From the NCBI GenBank assembly GCA_017634555.1, contig JAGBNF010000032.1, forward strand, positions 1-59,832: a stretch of DNA of 59,832 nt. The letters are read 5' to 3'. This DNA is from Eubacterium sp. Lineage in GTDB: Bacteria > Bacillota > Clostridia > Lachnospirales > Lachnospiraceae. Of the stretch, positions 47,038 through 57,882 are shown piece by piece (position 1 is the first letter of the stretch; each line of letters starts with the position of its first letter). A program made the position numbers and the translations under genes. Under the pieces are notes generated by a model that saw only the letters and a program-made list of their open reading frames with translations, was not told where the DNA came from and ran no database searches.

Positions 47038-48057
47038 CTAATTATCGATGTCATTTTGACGTTTTTCTGCTTCCAGATATGAAATATACTTACCTGCCAT
47101 ACCTGTACCTGCCGCAAGAACATTAACAGGCTCTGCCGAAGGAATTACCTTTACACCGGTTCTTTCGGCTATCAGTCTCTCCATTCCATAGAGCTGACTG
47201 CCTCCTCCTGACAGCATTATTCCCTCTTCTACTATATCCCCAACCACATCAGGATCTGCTTTATCTATTATATAAAGAGCCCTGTCTGCTATCTGATTTG
47301 CAAGCTCCGACATAGCCTCAACTGTTTCATTTGATGAAAGCTCCACCTTGACCGGAAGCCCTGTCATTACATTTCTTCCCTTTATCTCATAGGTCACATC
47401 ATTTGCTCTTATCATTACCGCGCCGGCTTCTATCTTGGCATCCTCTGCCGAAAGATCCCCGAGCAGCACATTATATTTACGTCTTACATATCTCGACAGA
47501 GCCTCTGTGAAATCATCTCCTCCGAGTTTCATAGATTCACCTATAACAACATCTCCTGCGGAAATGATAGCGATTTCGGTCGTACCTCCGCCAATATCTA
47601 TGATCATATGCCCTGATGCTTCCATTACATCAACACCCGAGCCGATTGCCGCAGCAATAGGTGCAGTGATAAGCTGTCTTCCTCTTGCTCCAAGCTTCTC
47701 AGCAGCGGAAAGCACCGCATTTTTCTCAACCTCGGAGATATCCATAGGTATGGTCACGCAAATGTTCGGCCTTCCGAAAATTCTTCTTTTTCTGAGTGCA
47801 TTTTTTACAAATGCTTTGATCATTCTTTCGGCAAGTGAATACTGTGAGATAACGCCTCTTCTGATAGGAAGCTCAACCACAATACTTTCATCCGTCTTAC
47901 CTATCATCTTTTTCGCCTTGGTACCTACAGCAATAATCTTCCTGCTCTTCCGCTCATACGCTATTACAGCAGGTTGATTTATCACTATTCCTTTATCTCT
48001 CATATATATTGAAACCTTGGATGTTCCAAGATCCATACCTATATCAACTCTGTACAT
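47038..48057 (-). CDS. mreB: Divergent MreB-family actin homologue
   Basis: 339 residues. Actin-fold phosphate loops GMDLGTSKVSIYM and DIGGGTTEIAIIS, the region EKNAVLSAAEKLGARG, and the adenosine loop MLSGGGSQLYGMERLIAERTG. Several normally constant MreB/Mbl positions differ (LPIRRGVISQYS instead of the usual RPMKDGVIADY form), so it is probably a paralog rather than the housekeeping MreB. mreC/mreD are absent. The ATG at 48057 has GGGAG 6 nt upstream. It follows the giant coiled-coil gene across a terminator, so it may share regulation with it. The symbol is for the family; the exact paralog is unsure. Confidence 0.8.
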   Translation of the reverse strand: MYRVDIGMDLGTSKVSIYMRDKGIVINQPAVIAYERKSRKIIAVGTKAKKMIGKTDESIVVELPIRRGVISQYSLAERMIKAFVKNALRKRRIFGRPNICVTIPMDISEVEKNAVLSAAEKLGARGRQLITAPIAAAIGSGVDVMEASGHMIIDIGGGTTEIAIISAGDVVIGESMKLGGDDFTEALSRYVRRKYNVLLGDLSAEDAKIEAGAVMIRANDVTYEIKGRNVMTGLPVKVELSSNETVEAMSELANQIADRALYIIDKADPDVVGDIVEEGIMLSGGGSQLYGMERLIAERTGVKVIPSAEPVNVLAAGTGMAGKYISYLEAEKRQNDIDN

Positions 48058-48070
48058 CTGATACTCCCTT

Positions 48071-48106
48071 AAAAAACAGCCGATGCTCTTTGAAGCACCG
48101 GCTGTT
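48071..48106 (-). terminator. Terminator lying on top of the mreB ribosome site
   Basis: AACAGCCGATGC and GCACCGGCTGTT pair (12 bp with one wobble), followed on the minus strand by TTTTTT. The mreB ribosome site begins immediately after, and only 69 nt separate the two genes. Confidence 0.75.
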
Positions 48107-48125
48107 ATAATCATGCATTACTTTA

Positions 48126-51100
48126 TTATGCAAAGTCCTCAGCAAGAATTATCTTATCTTCTATGCCAGCCTTTTTCTCTCTCTCATCGCATCTTGCGAT
48201 TGTTTCATCAAGATTTGCAATAAGCCTGTCGAGATTTCCATCCTCCATAGCAAGGATAAGATTCTTTAACTTCTCGGCTACGTTATCACCTGAGAGATAT
48301 CCTCTCTGCATCATATAACCGATAGCGATGATGTTCATATCGTTTCTGTCTACCTTCTGCATTTCAATGAAATGTTCAAAGTCAGGACGAACTTCATTTA
48401 CACCATCGAAAAGTCTTGATATGGAATCGATCTCACCCGTAAGGATAATTACGAAATCAAACTTTTCATCATCTGACAGCTCAACGATTTCCTTAAGTTT
48501 TGCAGGAGCTATAAGACCGGCATTCTCTACTACAAGAGTTCCACCCTTAAGCTTTTCCATTGCAGGTCCGAGATTAACCTTATTAAGCGCCTGAGCCTTA
48601 ATCTTAGCTATCGTCTTCGACTTACAGATACCCATATCGTAAAAACTTCTTGCGAAGTCTTCACCAACACATACCGAACCAAATCCATGCTTACCAAGAA
48701 CAACGATATTTCTTGGATGATCTGCATTATTTGAAATAGTATTAAATGCTTCAACTATCTGATCATCAGCATCTTCGATACTGAGGTATTTCTCAAGATA
48801 ATATGCTGCAAGCGGAAGTCTTCCACCATCTGCTACAGATGTAAGATCAAGATTGATCTTATCTGCATCGGCAAGCTTCTGCTCTGCATTCTTCTTGGAC
48901 TTCTTAGCATCTTCAACTGCCTTCTCAGCTTCCTTGATCTTCTTCTCAAGTTCAGCTATCTCTTCAACATTAGCTGAACTTGCAGCTGCAGCTTCTTCTG
49001 CTGCTTTCTGCGCATCTGCGATTTCCTTCTCAGCACTCTTAACATCAGCATCCTTAGCCTTTAACTCTTCAGCAACCTTAGCCTTGTTGTCCTTAGCAGT
49101 CTGAACAGCCTTCTGAGCTTCATCCTTCTTAGAAGCAAGTGCATTTACAGCCTTAGCTATTGCAGCATCGATAAGTGCACTAAGTCCGTCTTCAGACTTC
49201 TTGATTGCAAGCTCTTCAGCTTTCTTCTTAGCACCTTCAAGAGCTGTAGCTCTTGTCTTTGCATCCTTCTCAGCTTCAGCATCAATATCAGCAAAACGCT
49301 TCTTGGATGACTCTTCAATCTTCTTAACTTCTTCTTCGCCGGCAGCCTTTGCCTTATCTACAGCAGCCTTTGCTGTCTCAACAAGCTTTGCGGCAGCCTT
49401 CTCTGCATTTCTGGCTTCATCAACCTTGCCTCTCGCTTCATTAACAAGCTTCTCTGCATCAGCCTTAGCCTTCTTTGCAGCCTCTTCATCTTTATTTACC
49501 TGCTCACGAGCAGCTTTTGCTTCAGCAACTGCCTTCTGAGCATCAGCAAGTGCCTTTTCTGCATCTGCAACGACCTTATCAGCACCGGCCTTTTTATCTG
49601 CAAAGCCCTTGATCTGAGCTTCTGCAGCCTTAACCTTTTCATGTTCTGCTGTAACATTTGCCTCTGCCTTCTTTACATCTGCAGCAGCGGCATCAGCCTT
49701 CTTCTGAAGATCAGTAACAGCATTCTTTGCTTCTTCTTCCTTTGCTTGAGCAGCCTTTGATGCTTCAGCCTTTTTAGCCTCGATATCCTTCTTTGCATCT
49801 TCCTTAGCCTTAGCAAACTTTTCATCAGAAGCCTTTGCAGCATCAGCAGCTTCCTTTTCAACCTCAGCGATTGCGGCCTTAACTGCTTCCTGCTTAGCCT
49901 TGTCAGCCTCAACCTTTGCTTCCTTAAGTGCTGTAGCTCTTGCCTCTTCTTCTTCCTTCTGAACCTGAGCAACCTTTTCATTAGCTGCTTCTATAGCAGA
50001 ATCAGAATCAACAAGCCTCTTAGCTGCAGCGATTCTTGCTTCCTCAGCATTTATAAGCTTCATCTTGAGGGCTGCAGGAACATCTTTAACTTCAACCTTC
50101 TGACCTTTTGCAGCTTCAGCCTTTTTCTTAGCATCTTCAACTGCCTTCTTAACCTGATCAAGTCTTTCTTCTGCAACCTTTATATCAGCATCAGCAGTTT
50201 CAATTTCCTTCTTTGCATTCTGCTTAGCATTTTCCTTCTGCTCAGCAATCGCATCCATTCTGGCCTTTTCAGCCGCTTTCTTTCTTTCTTCTTCTATAGC
50301 CTTACGCTTAGCTGAATCGGCAGCCTTTCTCTTTGCAGCCTCTTCCGCTCTCTTCTTAGCGAGTTCTTCAGCCTTTCTCTTAGCTTCAGATTCAGCTGCT
50401 CTCTTCTTAGCAAGCTCTTCAGCCTTCTTCTTAGCCTCTTCCTCTGCAGCCTTGCGCTCTGCGGCAGCCTTTGCAGCCTCATCGGCTCTCTTCTTCTCTT
50501 CGGCCTCTTCGCTGGCCTTCTCATCTGCCTTACGCTTATCTTCCTCGGCCTTTCTTCTTGCAGCAGCCTTCTGCTTTGCTGCAGCAATTCTGTCAAGCTC
50601 TTCGTCAGCCCTCTTCATACCGGCTGTCGAACGCTTCTTACCCACCTTGGAATCATCCTGAGCTTCTTCAGGCTTTTCCTTAGCCTTACGAGCCTCTTCC
50701 TCAGCCTTTTCCTTCTTATCATCTGCAGCAGTCTTTTCTGCAATAGTTTTAGCCTGTGCAGCAAATGATGAATCGTCTTCATCATCTATATCATACATAG
50801 ACGCAGAATCAGGCGCTCCGCCCGCTCTGTTAGGAATGATGCTATCGATATCATCAGGACCCTTCTTAGCATCTTCAGGTCTGTCACTTGATACCCAGCC
50901 TGCATCATCCGCATTTACAACAGTTCCGTCGGAACTGAAGGACAGCTTTCCGTCCTTGTTGTCAACAACCTTACCCTTACCATCACCGAAATCAAGGCCA
51001 AGTCCACCTGTAGGAATTGTACCGAGACCTCCTTTGAGTCCACCGTTAAGTCCTCCTGTAGGTTCTGGAATAGAATTAAGGCCGCCGCCCTTCTTAGCGC

Positions 51101-51467
51101 TGCCTAATCCATCCCTCATATCGGAGGTAAGCACGGTAGTCTTGTCATCTGCACCTTCCTCAATATTTGAGCCAGGGCCCTTAAGGACTTCAGTATCGGA
51201 ATCAGCTGCTTTTCTTTCCAGCTCATCTAAATCAATGCCAAGTTCCTCGGCACGCTTTTTCCTCTTCTTCTCCTGTATTTTAGCAAGCTCCTCAGGAGTA
51301 AGAGTCTTATACTTTTTCTGACCCTCTGATTCCTTCTTTGGCTTACTCTTGCCGGCAAATGCCATTGCCTCCTGCTCTCTCTGCAGTTTAGCAGCTTTTT
51401 CTGCACGTTCCTTCTCAACCTGTGCACGCACAGCCGCAATTAGGGCTTCTCTTTGGTCTACAGCCAC
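48126..51467 (-). CDS. Giant coiled-coil protein with degenerate AAA (CbxX/SpoVK-like) C-terminus
   Basis: 1113 residues. About 1-230: charged, Gly/Asp-rich and partly disordered. About 240-870: nearly uninterrupted Ala/Glu/Lys coiled coil. About 880-1113: a globular domain patterned like CbxX/CfqX/SpoVK ATPases, with VVLGKHGFGS in place of Walker A (Lys-Thr replaced by Ser-Val) and KGGTLVVENAG in place of Walker B, then FVIILTGEIDSISRLFDG and RPDFEHFIEM where relatives have AGYPDEMERFL and SRFPHVIEF. Probably cannot hydrolyse ATP. The start is GTG with AAGGAGG 9 nt upstream. Last of three large unknown genes before mreB. Function unknown; a scaffold is inference. Confidence 0.8.
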   Translation of the reverse strand: MAVDQREALIAAVRAQVEKERAEKAAKLQREQEAMAFAGKSKPKKESEGQKKYKTLTPEELAKIQEKKRKKRAEELGIDLDELERKAADSDTEVLKGPGSNIEEGADDKTTVLTSDMRDGLGSAKKGGGLNSIPEPTGGLNGGLKGGLGTIPTGGLGLDFGDGKGKVVDNKDGKLSFSSDGTVVNADDAGWVSSDRPEDAKKGPDDIDSIIPNRAGGAPDSASMYDIDDEDDSSFAAQAKTIAEKTAADDKKEKAEEEARKAKEKPEEAQDDSKVGKKRSTAGMKRADEELDRIAAAKQKAAARRKAEEDKRKADEKASEEAEEKKRADEAAKAAAERKAAEEEAKKKAEELAKKRAAESEAKRKAEELAKKRAEEAAKRKAADSAKRKAIEEERKKAAEKARMDAIAEQKENAKQNAKKEIETADADIKVAEERLDQVKKAVEDAKKKAEAAKGQKVEVKDVPAALKMKLINAEEARIAAAKRLVDSDSAIEAANEKVAQVQKEEEEARATALKEAKVEADKAKQEAVKAAIAEVEKEAADAAKASDEKFAKAKEDAKKDIEAKKAEASKAAQAKEEEAKNAVTDLQKKADAAAADVKKAEANVTAEHEKVKAAEAQIKGFADKKAGADKVVADAEKALADAQKAVAEAKAAREQVNKDEEAAKKAKADAEKLVNEARGKVDEARNAEKAAAKLVETAKAAVDKAKAAGEEEVKKIEESSKKRFADIDAEAEKDAKTRATALEGAKKKAEELAIKKSEDGLSALIDAAIAKAVNALASKKDEAQKAVQTAKDNKAKVAEELKAKDADVKSAEKEIADAQKAAEEAAAASSANVEEIAELEKKIKEAEKAVEDAKKSKKNAEQKLADADKINLDLTSVADGGRLPLAAYYLEKYLSIEDADDQIVEAFNTISNNADHPRNIVVLGKHGFGSVCVGEDFARSFYDMGICKSKTIAKIKAQALNKVNLGPAMEKLKGGTLVVENAGLIAPAKLKEIVELSDDEKFDFVIILTGEIDSISRLFDGVNEVRPDFEHFIEMQKVDRNDMNIIAIGYMMQRGYLSGDNVAEKLKNLILAMEDGNLDRLIANLDETIARCDEREKKAGIEDKIILAEDFA

Positions 51468-51525
51468 TGCTAAGTACCTCCTTTAATACATTACTCTTTT
51501 ATTCTGATATATCTAATCATTTCCC

Positions 51526-54500
51526 CTAGATATCTATACCCAATGATGCAAGCAGCTCTTGTGCTTCACGCATCTTTTCATCTTCAGCCTTAAGTTTTGC
51601 ATCAAGCTCGGACTGCTTCTCGTTTACAATATCATCGAACTTATTTTCGATTTCAAAGTCATTCCTTACTGTAGGGAAGAGATCCGTCTTGAATTCAGGG
51701 AACTCAAATCTCGGTTTAACCATAAGATATGCAGGTTCAGGTTCACCTTCATATACAACTTCCGGTTCAACTTCAGGCTTTATAACATTCTCATCAACAA
51801 CCTCAACCTCCGGTTCGACAGTCTCTTCAACTTCGGTATCTTCAACCTCAGCCTCCGATTCGAATACAGGCTCGAATCCGGCATCTATCGTCGTATCAAA
51901 TTCATTTTCTGTATCAAATGTATCCTCAACCTCTGCTTCTGATTCGAACTCTGCTTCAAAGCCGGTATCAATACTTGCCTCAACTTCAGGTTCTTTCCTT
52001 GCTTCAATCTCAGATTCTTTCTCAGCTTCAAATTCAGGTTCTGATCTGAATTCTATCTTAGGCTCCGAATCAAACGAAGGCTTAGATTCTGATTTAAATT
52101 CTATCTTTGACTCAGTATCACGTCTTGCAGCTGAACCATATGCCCCCTGCAGTCCCGGTCCGAATACTGATTCTGTTCCGGTTCCGGATCCGAATACTGA
52201 CGTTCCCGATCCGTATGAATTCTTAAGTCCATATTTGATGGTAGTCTTAACCTCAGGTTCCTTTTCAGGTTCCGGTTCAGACTTCGTCTCAGGTTCCGGT
52301 TCCTTCTTCGAATTAAGAACCGCCTGCAGCTTCTGAGTAAACTCAAGCTCTGGATCAAATCCGTTTATAGTACTGAATTCAGGACTATTTATCTTTCCGG
52401 AGAAGAAATCTTCAACCTCTGTCTCATCGTCAGCCTCAGTTTCTGCTTCAGACTCAGCTTCCACTTCTACTTCAGTCTCAGATTTGATTTCCGTCTCAAA
52501 CTCGGATACATTTTCTGACGCAGGCTCTGTTTCAAATTCAGATACAGTTTCTGTATCAGAAACAGAATTATATTCAGCAACAATTTCAGGTTCTGACGTT
52601 ATTTCAGGTTCCTTCTCATTTTCGAAATCCGGAACCGAATCAATCTCTGCAGTAAATGCAGACTCGGAATCTAAATCGTTGTCCGCGTTGTCAAATGCTT
52701 CAACCTCATTATCATTTTCATCCGAAATCTGACTTTCAAGTTCTTTTCCAAACAGCGAAGCATAATCAAATCCGGAACTAAGTGTCGGCTCATCATCTGC
52801 TTCTTCAGCTTCTCCGGTATCTTCATATTCAGCCTTAAAATCATCTGTAATTTCAGGGCCGATAAATGCATCTTCCTCTGAAATATATGATTTTACAGGT
52901 TCTTCTATCATTTCCGTCTCATATGATTCTTCAGACTCTACTACTGTTTCAGCTTCTGTCTCATATGATTCTTCAGGCTCTGCAGACTCGGTATTCACCT
53001 CCGCCTCAGTTTCATATGCTTCTTCGGTCTCTTCAGGCTCTGCGAACTCTTCAGCATCCTCATTGCTTCCTGCTTCAGAACCAACCTCATAGAACGGCTC
53101 ATCAAGATGATCGAACTTTGTTCTGTCTTCAATCTGAGGATTTAGCACCTTCTCGATTGCAGCAGCAAGCTCTTCATCTGTCATTGATGCAAGTTCTGTA
53201 TCGGAAAGTGAAGCTATATACTGCTTTGTAACTGATATATACTCCTCATCGATATCGGAATAATCATAATCATCATAATCGAAGTCGTCTTCATCCTCCT
53301 CAGCTTCGGCTGCAAATTCTTCCTCAGCTTCTGGAGCAAGCTCTTCTTCAGTGTCATAAGCAGCTTTCTCTTCGGATTCAAGAACAATATCATCTTCAGG
53401 TTCTGTTTCAGTCGAACCGTAGGATGCCTTTTCTTCCTCTTCCTCCTGCTTAAGGCTTTCCTTCGTCTTTCTGAAGTCAAGCTCTGCATTCTGCTTATAT
53501 CTCTCGAGCTCCTTATATGCACTTATACTATCGAAAGGATTCTCGAAAGCTTCCTCTTCTTCTTTATCAAGATCATATATAGATTCTGATTCCGGTGCGA
53601 ATCCGTCATCAAAATCGTATGATATAAATTCTTTCTCAGGCTTAATCTCCTTCATATCCGCCTTAGTAGTACCTGTAGATCGAATATTGTTGAAGATACC
53701 CTTAACAAATCCTGCAGCTCCGGTTGATTCAGATACTGACTCTTCCTTCTCGGCCACAGCATCTTCCTTCTTTGCTTCCTCTGAAACGCCTTCGGTTGCG
53801 GCTGCTGTATTTATATCGGCTTCGCCCACAGTCTCAACTGTTTCAGATGCAGCATTTACGCCTTCTGCAGTTTCTGCAGCAACAGCCTGCTCGGCAGCTC
53901 CTTCAGTTACTGTTCCGGCTGCTGTTTCACTTACCTGTACAGCCGCTGCAGCTTCTTCTGTCTCAGCCTTAACTTCTTCAGTCTTAGGCCGTGTCTTGCC
54001 CTTCAGGAATCTCTTCCTGATAAACGACTTAAGTCTCTTTTCGACTGCCGCATTTAACTGAACTTCTCCTTCTGAAGCGCCGTCTTCGGATACGATCACA
54101 TTTCCATCTGCATCAAGCTCAGATTCAGCTGATCCATCCTTGTTTTTCTTTATCTTGTTCAGGAACTTGGAACCTGTCTTAACGTCATCATACATCTCAG
54201 TTATGACTGCGTCCTGGCTCTGAGGATTACGTCTCAGATAATCAGCCTTCAGAACTTCCTCTTCCTGTGCTCTAATACTTTCTTCTTCCGGATCTTTATC
54301 CGCAGATTCTTCCTTCGGATAAATGTAAAAATATACTTCAGCCTTTTCTCTTCCATCAAGTATATCTACTATCGTCTGAGTATAATAACCATCTTTGAAG
54401 GTTGCCAGATAATCCGAACTTAATATCTCATACTCATCCTTCTTATCCATCAGATAAAGAATGAGGAATAATTCGAAGCTCCAATTCTCATCAAGCTGAT

Positions 54501-54915
54501 CTCTGAATCCCGGATACAGCATATCGTGAAGTACGCTAAGCTCTGCCCGAGCCGCCTTCTTCATGATATAGCTTCCCTCTGAAAACTCACCGGAAAGACC
54601 TGTGATGTTAGCTTCATATTCCTCATAATATCTTTCAGCGAGACTCTTAAAACCTCTCTTAAGATAAAAATTCATGATTGAAAAAATGATCCTGTTGGCA
54701 ACCGGCGCCATGGAATGTGCCTTGACATAAAGCTGTCTTGCCTCCTTGAGCCTGCCCACATTTTCATAAATCTCTGCACACGAACGTAAAAACTGAGGAT
54801 TAAGCGATCTTTCAAGGTTCTGGGAGTCAAGTATATCTACAGCGAGATTATACTCATGCCTCTCAGCCATCTGCTTAATCTTATTAACGTTTGCCATGCT
54901 AAGTCCGGAACTCAA
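51526..54915 (-). CDS. Giant acidic protein with helical-repeat N-terminus
   Basis: 1129 residues. About 1-210 is helical and TPR-like (EARQLYVKAHSMAPVANRI, GFKSLAERYYEEYEANI). The rest is dominated by Glu, Ser and Asp with long low-complexity stretches (about 290-1070), and a short conserved-looking C-terminal helix (FDDIVNEKQSELDAKLKAED) ends the protein. The start is TTG at 54915 (GAGG 9 nt upstream) or ATG at 54897 with a weak site; the first is given but not settled. No membrane segment. It sits 12 nt after the YbjQ-zinc protein and 58 nt before the coiled-coil gene, so the three are probably one operon. Function unknown. Confidence 0.75.
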   Translation of the reverse strand: MSSGLSMANVNKIKQMAERHEYNLAVDILDSQNLERSLNPQFLRSCAEIYENVGRLKEARQLYVKAHSMAPVANRIIFSIMNFYLKRGFKSLAERYYEEYEANITGLSGEFSEGSYIMKKAARAELSVLHDMLYPGFRDQLDENWSFELFLILYLMDKKDEYEILSSDYLATFKDGYYTQTIVDILDGREKAEVYFYIYPKEESADKDPEEESIRAQEEEVLKADYLRRNPQSQDAVITEMYDDVKTGSKFLNKIKKNKDGSAESELDADGNVIVSEDGASEGEVQLNAAVEKRLKSFIRKRFLKGKTRPKTEEVKAETEEAAAAVQVSETAAGTVTEGAAEQAVAAETAEGVNAASETVETVGEADINTAAATEGVSEEAKKEDAVAEKEESVSESTGAAGFVKGIFNNIRSTGTTKADMKEIKPEKEFISYDFDDGFAPESESIYDLDKEEEEAFENPFDSISAYKELERYKQNAELDFRKTKESLKQEEEEEKASYGSTETEPEDDIVLESEEKAAYDTEEELAPEAEEEFAAEAEEDEDDFDYDDYDYSDIDEEYISVTKQYIASLSDTELASMTDEELAAAIEKVLNPQIEDRTKFDHLDEPFYEVGSEAGSNEDAEEFAEPEETEEAYETEAEVNTESAEPEESYETEAETVVESEESYETEMIEEPVKSYISEEDAFIGPEITDDFKAEYEDTGEAEEADDEPTLSSGFDYASLFGKELESQISDENDNEVEAFDNADNDLDSESAFTAEIDSVPDFENEKEPEITSEPEIVAEYNSVSDTETVSEFETEPASENVSEFETEIKSETEVEVEAESEAETEADDETEVEDFFSGKINSPEFSTINGFDPELEFTQKLQAVLNSKKEPEPETKSEPEPEKEPEVKTTIKYGLKNSYGSGTSVFGSGTGTESVFGPGLQGAYGSAARRDTESKIEFKSESKPSFDSEPKIEFRSEPEFEAEKESEIEARKEPEVEASIDTGFEAEFESEAEVEDTFDTENEFDTTIDAGFEPVFESEAEVEDTEVEETVEPEVEVVDENVIKPEVEPEVVYEGEPEPAYLMVKPRFEFPEFKTDLFPTVRNDFEIENKFDDIVNEKQSELDAKLKAEDEKMREAQELLASLGIDI

Positions 54916-54927
54916 AACTTTTAACCT

Positions 54928-56028
54928 CTATTCCTCAGAATCATCCTCGAAAAGCTTTTCAACCTTTTCGATTACGCTCTCTTTCATATGTCCTCTGGTC
55001 CTTTCGTACTGAAGACCCGATTCCATTATTTCAAGGAGCGGCATTCTGTATTTCGAATCTATTTCTTTAAGATGTCCCATCAGAACATCCTTTAATTCAA
55101 TTACATATTCTTTTCTTCGCATCTCGGCGATCATCTTCTCATAGTTAAATGATGCCTTGACCATGATATCCTTCTGTTTACGCTTACAGACAACACACTC
55201 CGTAAGCCCTGCTTCATTCACATGACCGCAGATACATGTCCAGATCATGCCGTCCGACTTATATTTCGAAACAGCATCGATGCCCTTCTTTTCCTTGAGT
55301 GATTCAAGACGCTTATAACTCATGCTTACATTTACCGGAGAATCATTACAAGCAAGAATTCCTCTCGGAGTCACATACTTGTTCAGGAATACCTTTGCAT
55401 CCTTGAGAATCTTTATATCATCAGGTGAAATCCTGCTGGAGATATAATCAGATTCAATCACTGAAAGGTTTCCTCCCTTACTGAATGTGAAGTCTACATT
55501 CTTTATCAAAAGCCTCTCATCATAAAGATTCGTAAACTCAATATCCGTTCTGATAGATATGATATCCTCGTTATTGTAATTATAACAGGTGATACCCATA
55601 TTTATCTCATTCTTGGTACCGTCAAGAGTTATCTTTACCGGTCTCGGTACAATCTGTGTGTAGTAATTCGTAACATACAGCTCTCTGTGAATTGAATTAT
55701 CCACAACGATCTTCTTCCTTACGATTACTGCATTACCGGTCATTATAACGCCGAAAGAGCCACCCTCAATAGACGCATGAGTCATCTTGAGACCTAATAT
55801 TGCATTAGCCCCCTTCTTCTCTGCTTCCTTGAGAATTCTCTTCTCCGCCGCTTCACGACATTTGTCGAGTTTAACCATATCTTTCTGGGAGACATTCGTC
55901 ACAGTGGACGCAATGCCGCTAAGAAAATTCGAGCCAAGAAGTGCCTGGCTTGAAATGAAGCCCAGATACTCTACGATCTCGTACCCCTCGAGACTCGAAC
56001 CAGTACTGATAAGAACGCTTTCAGACAT
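54928..56028 (-). CDS. YbjQ-fold protein with RanBP2-like zinc ribbon
   Basis: 366 residues. About 1-105 resembles the YbjQ/UPF0145 fold (GYEIVEYLGFISSQ, EAEKKGANAILGLKMTHASI). A beta-rich middle part follows (about 110-250). At about 265-287 is WTCICGHVNEAGLTECVVCK, a four-Cys zinc ribbon of the RanBP2 form, then a helical charged tail. GGAGGGG lies 6 nt before the ATG. It opens the large-protein cluster and has its own promoter just behind folA. YbjQ-fold proteins form pentameric rings; the role here is unknown. Confidence 0.75.
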   Translation of the reverse strand: MSESVLISTGSSLEGYEIVEYLGFISSQALLGSNFLSGIASTVTNVSQKDMVKLDKCREAAEKRILKEAEKKGANAILGLKMTHASIEGGSFGVIMTGNAVIVRKKIVVDNSIHRELYVTNYYTQIVPRPVKITLDGTKNEINMGITCYNYNNEDIISIRTDIEFTNLYDERLLIKNVDFTFSKGGNLSVIESDYISSRISPDDIKILKDAKVFLNKYVTPRGILACNDSPVNVSMSYKRLESLKEKKGIDAVSKYKSDGMIWTCICGHVNEAGLTECVVCKRKQKDIMVKASFNYEKMIAEMRRKEYVIELKDVLMGHLKEIDSKYRMPLLEIMESGLQYERTRGHMKESVIEKVEKLFEDDSEE

Positions 56029-57579: not shown

Positions 57580-57882
57580 GTGTCACATGTTGTTATTTTC
57601 TGGGGACAGCTGCTTCGCGAAATGCGAAAATCCCACCATCTGACTCAGGAGGAAATCGCCAGAGTACTCCATATTTCGAGACAGGATTACAGCCATATAG
57701 AAACCGGTAAAGTCAGACCTTCGCCGGAAATAATTTCGATACTTTCAAACCTGTATGACAAGGACCTTTTCACCTATGCACTCGACAAGATGCCCGATGC
57801 ACTCATCAACGAACAGCAGGAGTTTAAATCCTTTTTACGATCAGGTCTGCAAAGTCCGAAATCCGATAAAAGGAAACTGTAA
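57580..57882 (+). CDS. XRE-family helix-turn-helix regulator
   Basis: 100 residues. The HTH (about 13-65) is LLREMRKSHHLTQEEIARVL, with ISRQDYSHIETGKVRPSPE as the recognition part. A short unstructured tail completes it, with no sensor or catalytic domain. The start is GTG with AAGGAGG 8 nt upstream. It is divergent to thyA and convergent to the pseudo-receiver gene, with a shared terminator. Target unknown; self-control via the boxes in the spacer is inference. Confidence 0.85.
   Translation: MSHVVIFWGQLLREMRKSHHLTQEEIARVLHISRQDYSHIETGKVRPSPEIISILSNLYDKDLFTYALDKMPDALINEQQEFKSFLRSGLQSPKSDKRKL

Follow-up and report, generated by a model that had tools for sequence, protein, structure and literature searches.

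AAA proteins of the clade that includes SpoVK, CbbX and EccA are treated, in the part of PMC10659427 that concerns them, as dedicated chaperones, with the TPR-bearing EccA among them, and the same part describes SpoVK of Bacillus subtilis as an activator of the peptidoglycan enzyme MurG (PMC10659427). For the actin homologue MreB, the portion of PMC9597168 that deals with catalysis assigns to Glu140 of CcMreB the positioning of the attacking water, and gives the catalytic motif as E...T-X-[D/E]. Here, we describe a locus in which these two families are found side by side. The window, i.e. the whole stretch of 59,832 nucleotides that was analysed (Eubacterium sp., assembly GCA_017634555.1, contig JAGBNF010000032.1), contains four consecutive genes, named here Y, A, B and MreB2, which encode a YbjQ-domain protein, two very large proteins rich in low-complexity sequence, and a divergent MreB. 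In one Lachnospiraceae lineage, sequence comparison shows that A and B match the two ends of a single-chain protein of the SpoVK/CbbX/EccA clade; the head of B has lost its Walker A lysine, and the pair stands beside MreB2.

To the best of our knowledge, few MreB partners are known outside the rod system, and we are aware of no dead AAA+ chaperone that acts as a cytoskeletal scaffold. Each part of the cluster can be assigned to a known family; what is new to us is how they are combined and what became of the chaperone. Literature searches found no description of this cluster.

A conserved cluster in gut and rumen Lachnospiraceae

The genome from which the window is derived (G000; 2.33 Mb in 47 contigs, 71.85% complete) has Lachnospiraceae as its nearest named relatives. 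The gene order on the minus strand is thyA, folA, Y, A, B, MreB2, thl, crt and hbd. A first-pass annotation, made from the sequence alone, had placed on this strand reading frames of 366, 1129 and 1113 amino acids (aa), spaced by 12 and 58 nt and followed by an MreB, and the predicted open reading frames (ORFs) agree: Y (366 aa) is located at 54928..56028, A (1129 aa) at 51526..54915 and B (1113 aa) at 48126..51467, all on the minus strand, with 12 nt between Y and A and 58 nt between A and B. For A, the ORF finder predicts a TTG start. The MreB was also correctly placed next to B, but its start had been put at 48114, while the ATG at 48057, which is preceded at 6 nt by AAGGGAG, is most likely the true one. 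MreB2 (339 aa) would then occupy 47038..48057 on the minus strand, and the gap between B and MreB2 is 68 nt.

A scan of the contigs of GTDB genomes, for which the AAA ends of B and of seven relatives were the queries, returned 122 relatives. The best 80 of them were retained: 50 were loci of the B type, one had a B with a frame shift (L167), and 29 carried a shorter paralogue. The first-pass annotation had made its proposal dependent on a neighbourhood kept outside close relatives, and such a neighbourhood was found: MreB2 was the next gene after B in 50/50 B loci, with AAA identities to the window as low as 41%, the genome G002 discussed below being an exception. A was directly upstream of B in 34 of the 50 loci; a stray ORF lay between A and B in one (L180), the upstream ORF was cut by the contig start, yet ended in an A-type tail, in seven, and B itself was cut in eight. 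In all 42 loci with upstream sequence, A or an A-type tail preceded B. Of the 36 loci with A, all but L169 also had a Y upstream of it, and in 30 of these 35 the distance was no more than 123 nt. The next gene called after MreB2 was ygiQ in 24 of the 50 loci, thl in 15, another gene in 9 (in one of which, L196, ygiQ was one ORF further on), and could not be read in 2. Because the B–MreB2 pair is kept in the nine loci where the following gene differs, the block survives changes in its flanks.

The four-gene cluster is therefore real and conserved, and its carriers are gut and rumen Lachnospiraceae. Among the carriers not marked as metagenome assemblies are Eubacterium ruminantium ATCC 17233 (L185), in which all four genes are present, and Lachnospiraceae bacterium AC2031 (L188) and LC2019 (L174). 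In a sample of 150 genomes of the family, a near-full-length Y with at least 44% identity was present in six, that of the window included, and weaker long matches were present in two. Comparisons with the nearest relatives gave ratios of non-synonymous to synonymous substitution rates (dN/dS) of 0.03-0.23 in the 11 cases with finite dS, values that are rough because dS exceeded 1 in all 11; dS was saturated for Y, and for A the ratio was 0.07 in the TPR-like domain versus 0.21 in the tail (both with dS >2).

A putative split chaperone with a probably inactive head

No Pfam family matched the 1113-aa B of the window. Its C-terminal 244 aa (48129..48860, minus strand) are predicted to adopt an AAA+ fold with a predicted local distance difference test score (pLDDT) of 92.6 in the AlphaFold model, as expected from the AAA-type end read in this protein at the outset. 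The best match of this model, in both Foldseek and VIA-align, was CbbX (3syk); the root-mean-square deviation is large (7.4-8.2), and the subdomains are therefore probably set differently.

The AAA end of B matched 128 of the 150 family genomes, in most cases within one continuous frame that encodes about 700-1300 residues, and 11 of these single-chain proteins were taken whole. A hidden Markov model (HMM) of the first 200 residues of A (54316..54915, minus strand) matched the N-terminus of all 11 (E 7e-57 to 5e-18; 28 sequences searched). The C-terminus of the same 11 was recognized by an HMM of the last 245 residues of B. The layout of the single-chain proteins is thus TPR-like domain, linker, AAA domain. 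Five of them were scanned against Pfam and NCBIfam: TPR matches were obtained in four (two over a cut-off) and none in that of genome G131, while CbbX matched in five and SpoVK in four, all far below their cut-offs (e.g. 36 bits of 459). A profile built from ten single-chain proteins finds the solved structures of CbbX (3.8e-20) and EccA1 (1.8e-12). As for the TPR-like character attributed to A by the first-pass annotation, the window protein falls below the threshold (12.5 bits, cut-off 27), and it is the match of its N-terminal HMM to the 11 single-chain relatives that upholds the assignment. Taken together, the sequences make A and B look like separated halves of a single-chain protein.

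The single-chain protein of G131 (1108 aa, L072) contains in mid-chain the motif REELIAAVRAQVERERAAK, a counterpart, by eye, of the B N-terminus REALIAAVRAQVEKERAEK (the HMM gave no score); a Gly-rich linker follows the motif, and then a head without the Walker lysine. This fused protein could be an intermediate that has survived, or else the product of a re-fusion. Copies of the AAA end number one each in the five split-pair genomes other than that of the window, and two in G000, where the second is a short B paralogue.

The Walker A lysine is found in 10/11 single-chain proteins, but in 0/52 B proteins and 0/30 short paralogues, and the second position of Walker B is Asn in 50/52 B proteins and acidic in 1/11 single-chain proteins. 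The head of B thus kept its fold but, with changes in both Walker motifs, probably lost the use of nucleotides; since the Walker B position is seldom acidic in the single-chain proteins, these may already be weak ATPases. Compared with the SpoVK/CbbX/EccA clade, the locus shares the fold of the C-terminus of B, the scores of the single-chain relatives to CbbX and EccA1, and the order of TPR before AAA that is seen in EccA. It differs in that B lacks a working Walker A (GK[ST]) and in the Asn of Walker B, and in that the TPR and AAA domains reside in two different proteins, each extended by low-complexity linkers hundreds of residues long, beside an actin homologue. In EccA of type VII secretion both domains are in one chain, as both ends are in the single-chain relatives, whereas the window has two genes.

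The genes could also be read as a module for secretion or sporulation that is based on a chaperone of the EccA or SpoVK type, MreB2 being there by chance. The match to the EccA1 structure in PDB, and the combination of TPR with a SpoVK/CbbX-type AAA domain, which is the EccA arrangement in the part of PMC10659427 used here, would fit such a module; however, the Walker A lysine is missing from the B head in 52/52 proteins, and we regard this explanation as very unlikely.

The short B paralogue occurs in G000 (G000:C17:4225-5514, L073) and in L204-L240, and measures 334-446 aa in 29 loci. In the examples inspected, its pseudo-AAA domain follows an N-terminal helix of the MKPF/MRKPF...AYDAIKKLL type. 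It groups among the B rows in the AAA tree, and no MreB adjoins it in the locus maps. B is frame-shifted within its Lys/Glu/Ala repeat in L065:10546-13400 (G129) and in L167, through assembly error or in reality. The single-chain TPR-AAA gene of L074, L075 and L078 follows a gene of unknown kind encoding 1475-1490 aa.

Linkers, conserved ends and the Y protein

Between its TPR-like N-terminus and a helix-like motif at the C-terminus, A consists of a long acidic linker, with a net charge of -187 over aa 251-1050. B starts with the motif DQREALIAAVRAQVEKERAEK, followed by a Gly-rich linker, a Lys/Glu/Ala-rich stretch and the pseudo-AAA domain. The Lys/Glu/Ala-rich stretch (aa 291-870; 48858..50597, minus strand) contains 28.6% Ala, 20.3% Lys, 16.2% Glu and one Pro, a composition from which it is probably one long helix or coiled coil. 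With a helix rise of 0.15 nm per residue, the proline-free run of 420 residues in the window B would measure about 63 nm if it were a single helix.

The C-terminal motif of A is kept in most relatives among the rows listed, many of which have an ASLGI-type end and others another tail; the N-terminal motif of B is absent as such in L233, L237 and L239. The two ends created by the split, i.e. the C-terminus of A and the N-terminus of B, are better conserved than the middles of the proteins, which suggests that they may be docking sites.

Y was confirmed to contain the YbjQ domain that had been reported for it (aa 5-103; YbjQ_1, E 2.3e-14; 54.3 bits against PF01906, cut-off 23), and 36/36 Y rows match this family. 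The likeness to YbjQ/UPF0145 proteins concerns the first 100 residues, in sequence and fold; Y differs in the addition of a beta-sandwich (approximately aa 124-231), a zinc ribbon (aa 263-284), whose four cysteines are invariant in 36/36 rows, and a conserved helical C-terminal tail. The structure model is middling (mean pLDDT 76.3, predicted template modelling score 0.41). By analogy with the solved YbjQ homologues, which have five chains per entry, Y is likely to be a pentamer.

A third type of MreB

The actin homologue recognized in the first-pass annotation is a member of the MreB_Mbl family (346.1 bits, cut-off 27; E 2.1e-103) and exceeds the cut-off of NCBIfam PRK13927 (339.9 bits, cut-off 293), but not those of TIGR00904 (315.9 bits, cut-off 365.75) and NCBIfam MamK (52.4 bits, cut-off 400). 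A tree of 48 rows resolved three clades, composed of six MreB2 rows (support 98/80), 18 rows of a common copy (96/93) and 24 mreC-linked rows (100/100). MreB2 is therefore not the housekeeping mreC-linked copy, a possibility raised at first; it forms a clade of its own, apart from both other types, and its nearest neighbour in the tree is the common copy. This adjoins recD2 in 6/6 neighbourhoods inspected, and flgF/G-type genes in three of the six (one, L115, by eye).

The residue equivalent to Glu140 of CcMreB is Glu in 18/18 common rows. Out of 53 MreB2 proteins, 23 have Ser, Ala, Thr or Tyr in its place, the window protein having Ala (L166 is among those without this Glu, L168 among those with it); the T-X-[D/E] part of the motif is kept in 53/53, window included. 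It should be noted that the 24 mreC-linked rows (L121-L161) carry Lys (18) or Arg (6) at the same position, so that, judging from this residue, the MreB of the canonical operon may also be poor at hydrolysis. A loop of MreB2 contains basic and hydrophobic residues at what we take to be the position where other MreBs insert into the membrane. The motif [IF]WG[RK]P is present in this loop in 33/53 MreB2 proteins versus 0/18 common rows, and the window reads KRRIFGRP. In comparison with the rod-system MreB (mreBCD), MreB2 shares the family, the T-X-[D/E] motif and the basic and hydrophobic loop residues, but belongs to a separate clade, is not located beside mreC, and has lost the catalytic Glu in the 23 proteins mentioned.

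The frame as first delimited (window 47038-48114) also matches phrog_22570, a phage-virus family of 682 positions without known function (8.9e-61, about 318 residues), i.e. an MreB-like family of phages.

The pairing of an acidic repetitive protein with an actin homologue is reminiscent of the magnetosome cytoskeleton with MamK, MamJ and the Mad proteins, which combines an actin homologue with an acidic repetitive partner (MamJ), helical proteins and a TPR protein. The cluster could likewise be a cytoskeleton that positions an organelle or inclusion, for example a glycogen granule, with MreB2 as the track and A and B as acidic and helical tethers. Two single-chain proteins do match the TPR protein MamA (1.9e-6 and 1.7e-4), and the single-chain gene stands next to one that encodes CBM_48 and alpha-amylase domains, of the glycogen branching type, in 5/11 neighbourhoods (L077, L080-L083), four of these five homologues being near-identical (88-95%). 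Networks of coiled-coil and actin-like proteins are described in RS-1, in the part of PMC12748827 on which we draw. However, MreB2 scores much higher as an MreB than as a MamK (339.9 versus 52.4 bits), the bacteria are different, and no magnetosome gene was found, although none was looked for. The labelled genes that recur around the split cluster are thyA, folA, ygiQ, thl, crt and hbd, the unlabelled ones not having been searched for glycogen or organelle genes. A positioning cytoskeleton of this kind is therefore rated as improbable.

Absence of mreB from the mreC locus

Each of 14 further genomes with MreB2 has a single mreC and, at E 1e-30, two MreB genes and no more. No MreB gene was found beside mreC in these 14 genomes, in which mreC is preceded by radC (12) or by an unlabelled ORF (2). 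With the addition of G040, G070, G129, G106 and G002, mreB was found beside mreC in 0/19 MreB2 genomes, compared with 24/29 mreC loci of other genomes of the family. The latter derive from the 30 best-scoring of 55 matches, of which the locus of G002 was counted with the MreB2 group. Fisher's test gives p = 7e-9 for this comparison, a value that does not represent an independent count because the genomes are related and the 30 loci are not random. No mreC was found in the window genome, which is incomplete and for these reasons is not included among the 19.

Possible function of the cluster

The explanation that we prefer, to which we assign a probability of roughly 0.4, sees in the cluster a dead chaperone that serves as a scaffold on an MreB2 filament, with an envelope enzyme as its client. 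It draws on the kept gene order, the match of A and B to the two ends of the single-chain proteins, the clade of the B head and its lost lysine, the separate clade of MreB2 with its frequent loss of the catalytic Glu, the lack of mreB at mreC, and the activation of MurG by SpoVK. The module would be a scaffold attached to the membrane, in which MreB2 would form slowly turning or static filaments at the inner membrane, held there by the basic and hydrophobic residues of its loop. The pseudo-AAA head of B would be carried by an extended helical rod, of about 60 nm provided that the 420-residue run forms one helix. Together with the TPR domain of A on its acidic tether, it would hold the client and connect this to the filament. 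A and B could rejoin through their conserved loose ends, the C-terminus of the former and the N-terminus of the latter, and a pentameric Y might act as the hub. Those members of the AAA clade that have been characterised act as dedicated chaperones, among them the activator of MurG, and for this reason a cytoplasmic enzyme of envelope synthesis would be the most likely client; MreB2 would then do work done elsewhere by the mreC-linked MreB. The more specific proposal that a dead, split chaperone ATPase was recruited as the dedicated scaffold of a hydrolysis-impaired MreB2, which replaced the mreC-linked MreB in envelope growth, appears doubtful to us. Because Eubacterium ruminantium ATCC 17233 has all four genes, the idea is testable in a named strain; if true, it would bear on the way in which these gut and rumen bacteria manage to grow although they have no mreC-linked MreB.

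Several observations weigh against this scaffold. A terminator-like hairpin (48105-48076, followed by a T tract; 48071..48105, minus strand) is located in the B–MreB2 gap of the window, where it was given by our own scan and RNA folding and was not listed by the pattern tool. Such hairpins are present in 18/51 B–MreB2 gaps (the window and 17 relatives), while comparable ones occur in 0/36 A–B gaps and in 8/52 stretches after MreB2. The four genes are indeed co-oriented, as first annotated, but their reading as a simple operon is weakened by the hairpin: MreB2 may not simply be the fourth gene, and its expression may be lower or independent. Y lies 0.7-3.7 kb from A in 5/35 loci, and in G002 A and B precede argG, MreB2 adjoins ygiQ at another site, and Y is found next to thyA where a contig ends. 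The catalytic Glu is retained in 30/53 MreB2 proteins, and its loss is not special to MreB2, since the mreC-linked copy is also without it (24/24). Five of the 29 other mreC loci, and G131, also lack mreB there, with no MreB2 found in those genomes, so that the loss of mreB need not follow from MreB2. Finally, the AAA tree does not decide whether the fused protein of G131 is ancestral or re-fused, and the link with MurG is one of clade analogy.

Some of these observations would be readily accommodated if MreB2, being related to the recD2-side gene, had simply become the MreB of the rod system in this lineage upon loss of the mreC-linked copy, and if A, B and Y had a separate job and an inherited synteny. 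The position of MreB2 nearest to the common copy, the lack of an mreC-linked copy in 19/19 MreB2 genomes examined, the hairpin before MreB2, and the separation of A–B from MreB2 in G002 are all consistent with this, and so is the conservation of the flanks (thyA in 34/36 and folA in 31/36 loci with A; ygiQ or thl after MreB2 in 39/50). Inherited synteny does not, however, sit well with a B–MreB2 adjacency of 50/50 that includes the nine loci with a changed following gene. The loss of the catalytic Glu in 23/53 MreB2 proteins also argues against a takeover of the rod system, with a force diminished by the lack of this Glu in the mreC-linked copy. On balance, we consider such a takeover somewhat unlikely.

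With regard to the first-pass annotation as a whole, its interpretation is partly supported: neither of the two findings that would have refuted it was made, and its parts (YbjQ fold, TPR-like acidic protein, helix-rich protein with an AAA-type end, actin homologue) are right as far as the analysis reached, while the filament or envelope-associated scaffold that it suggested is a putative function. It did not extend to the probable origin of A and B as the two ends of a family-wide protein, to the lost Walker lysine, or to the absence of an mreC-linked mreB from the MreB2 genomes examined.

Neighbouring genes

Follow-up searches confirmed the names given to thl, crt, hbd, thyA, recD2, radC and argG, to a gene of the flgF/G type and one for a radical SAM protein of the YgiQ type, and to the branching-enzyme-type genes. 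Upstream of thyA, on the opposite strand, the window contains a small gene (57580-57882), of helix-turn-helix type by eye, a homologue of which is present in 30/36 loci with A.

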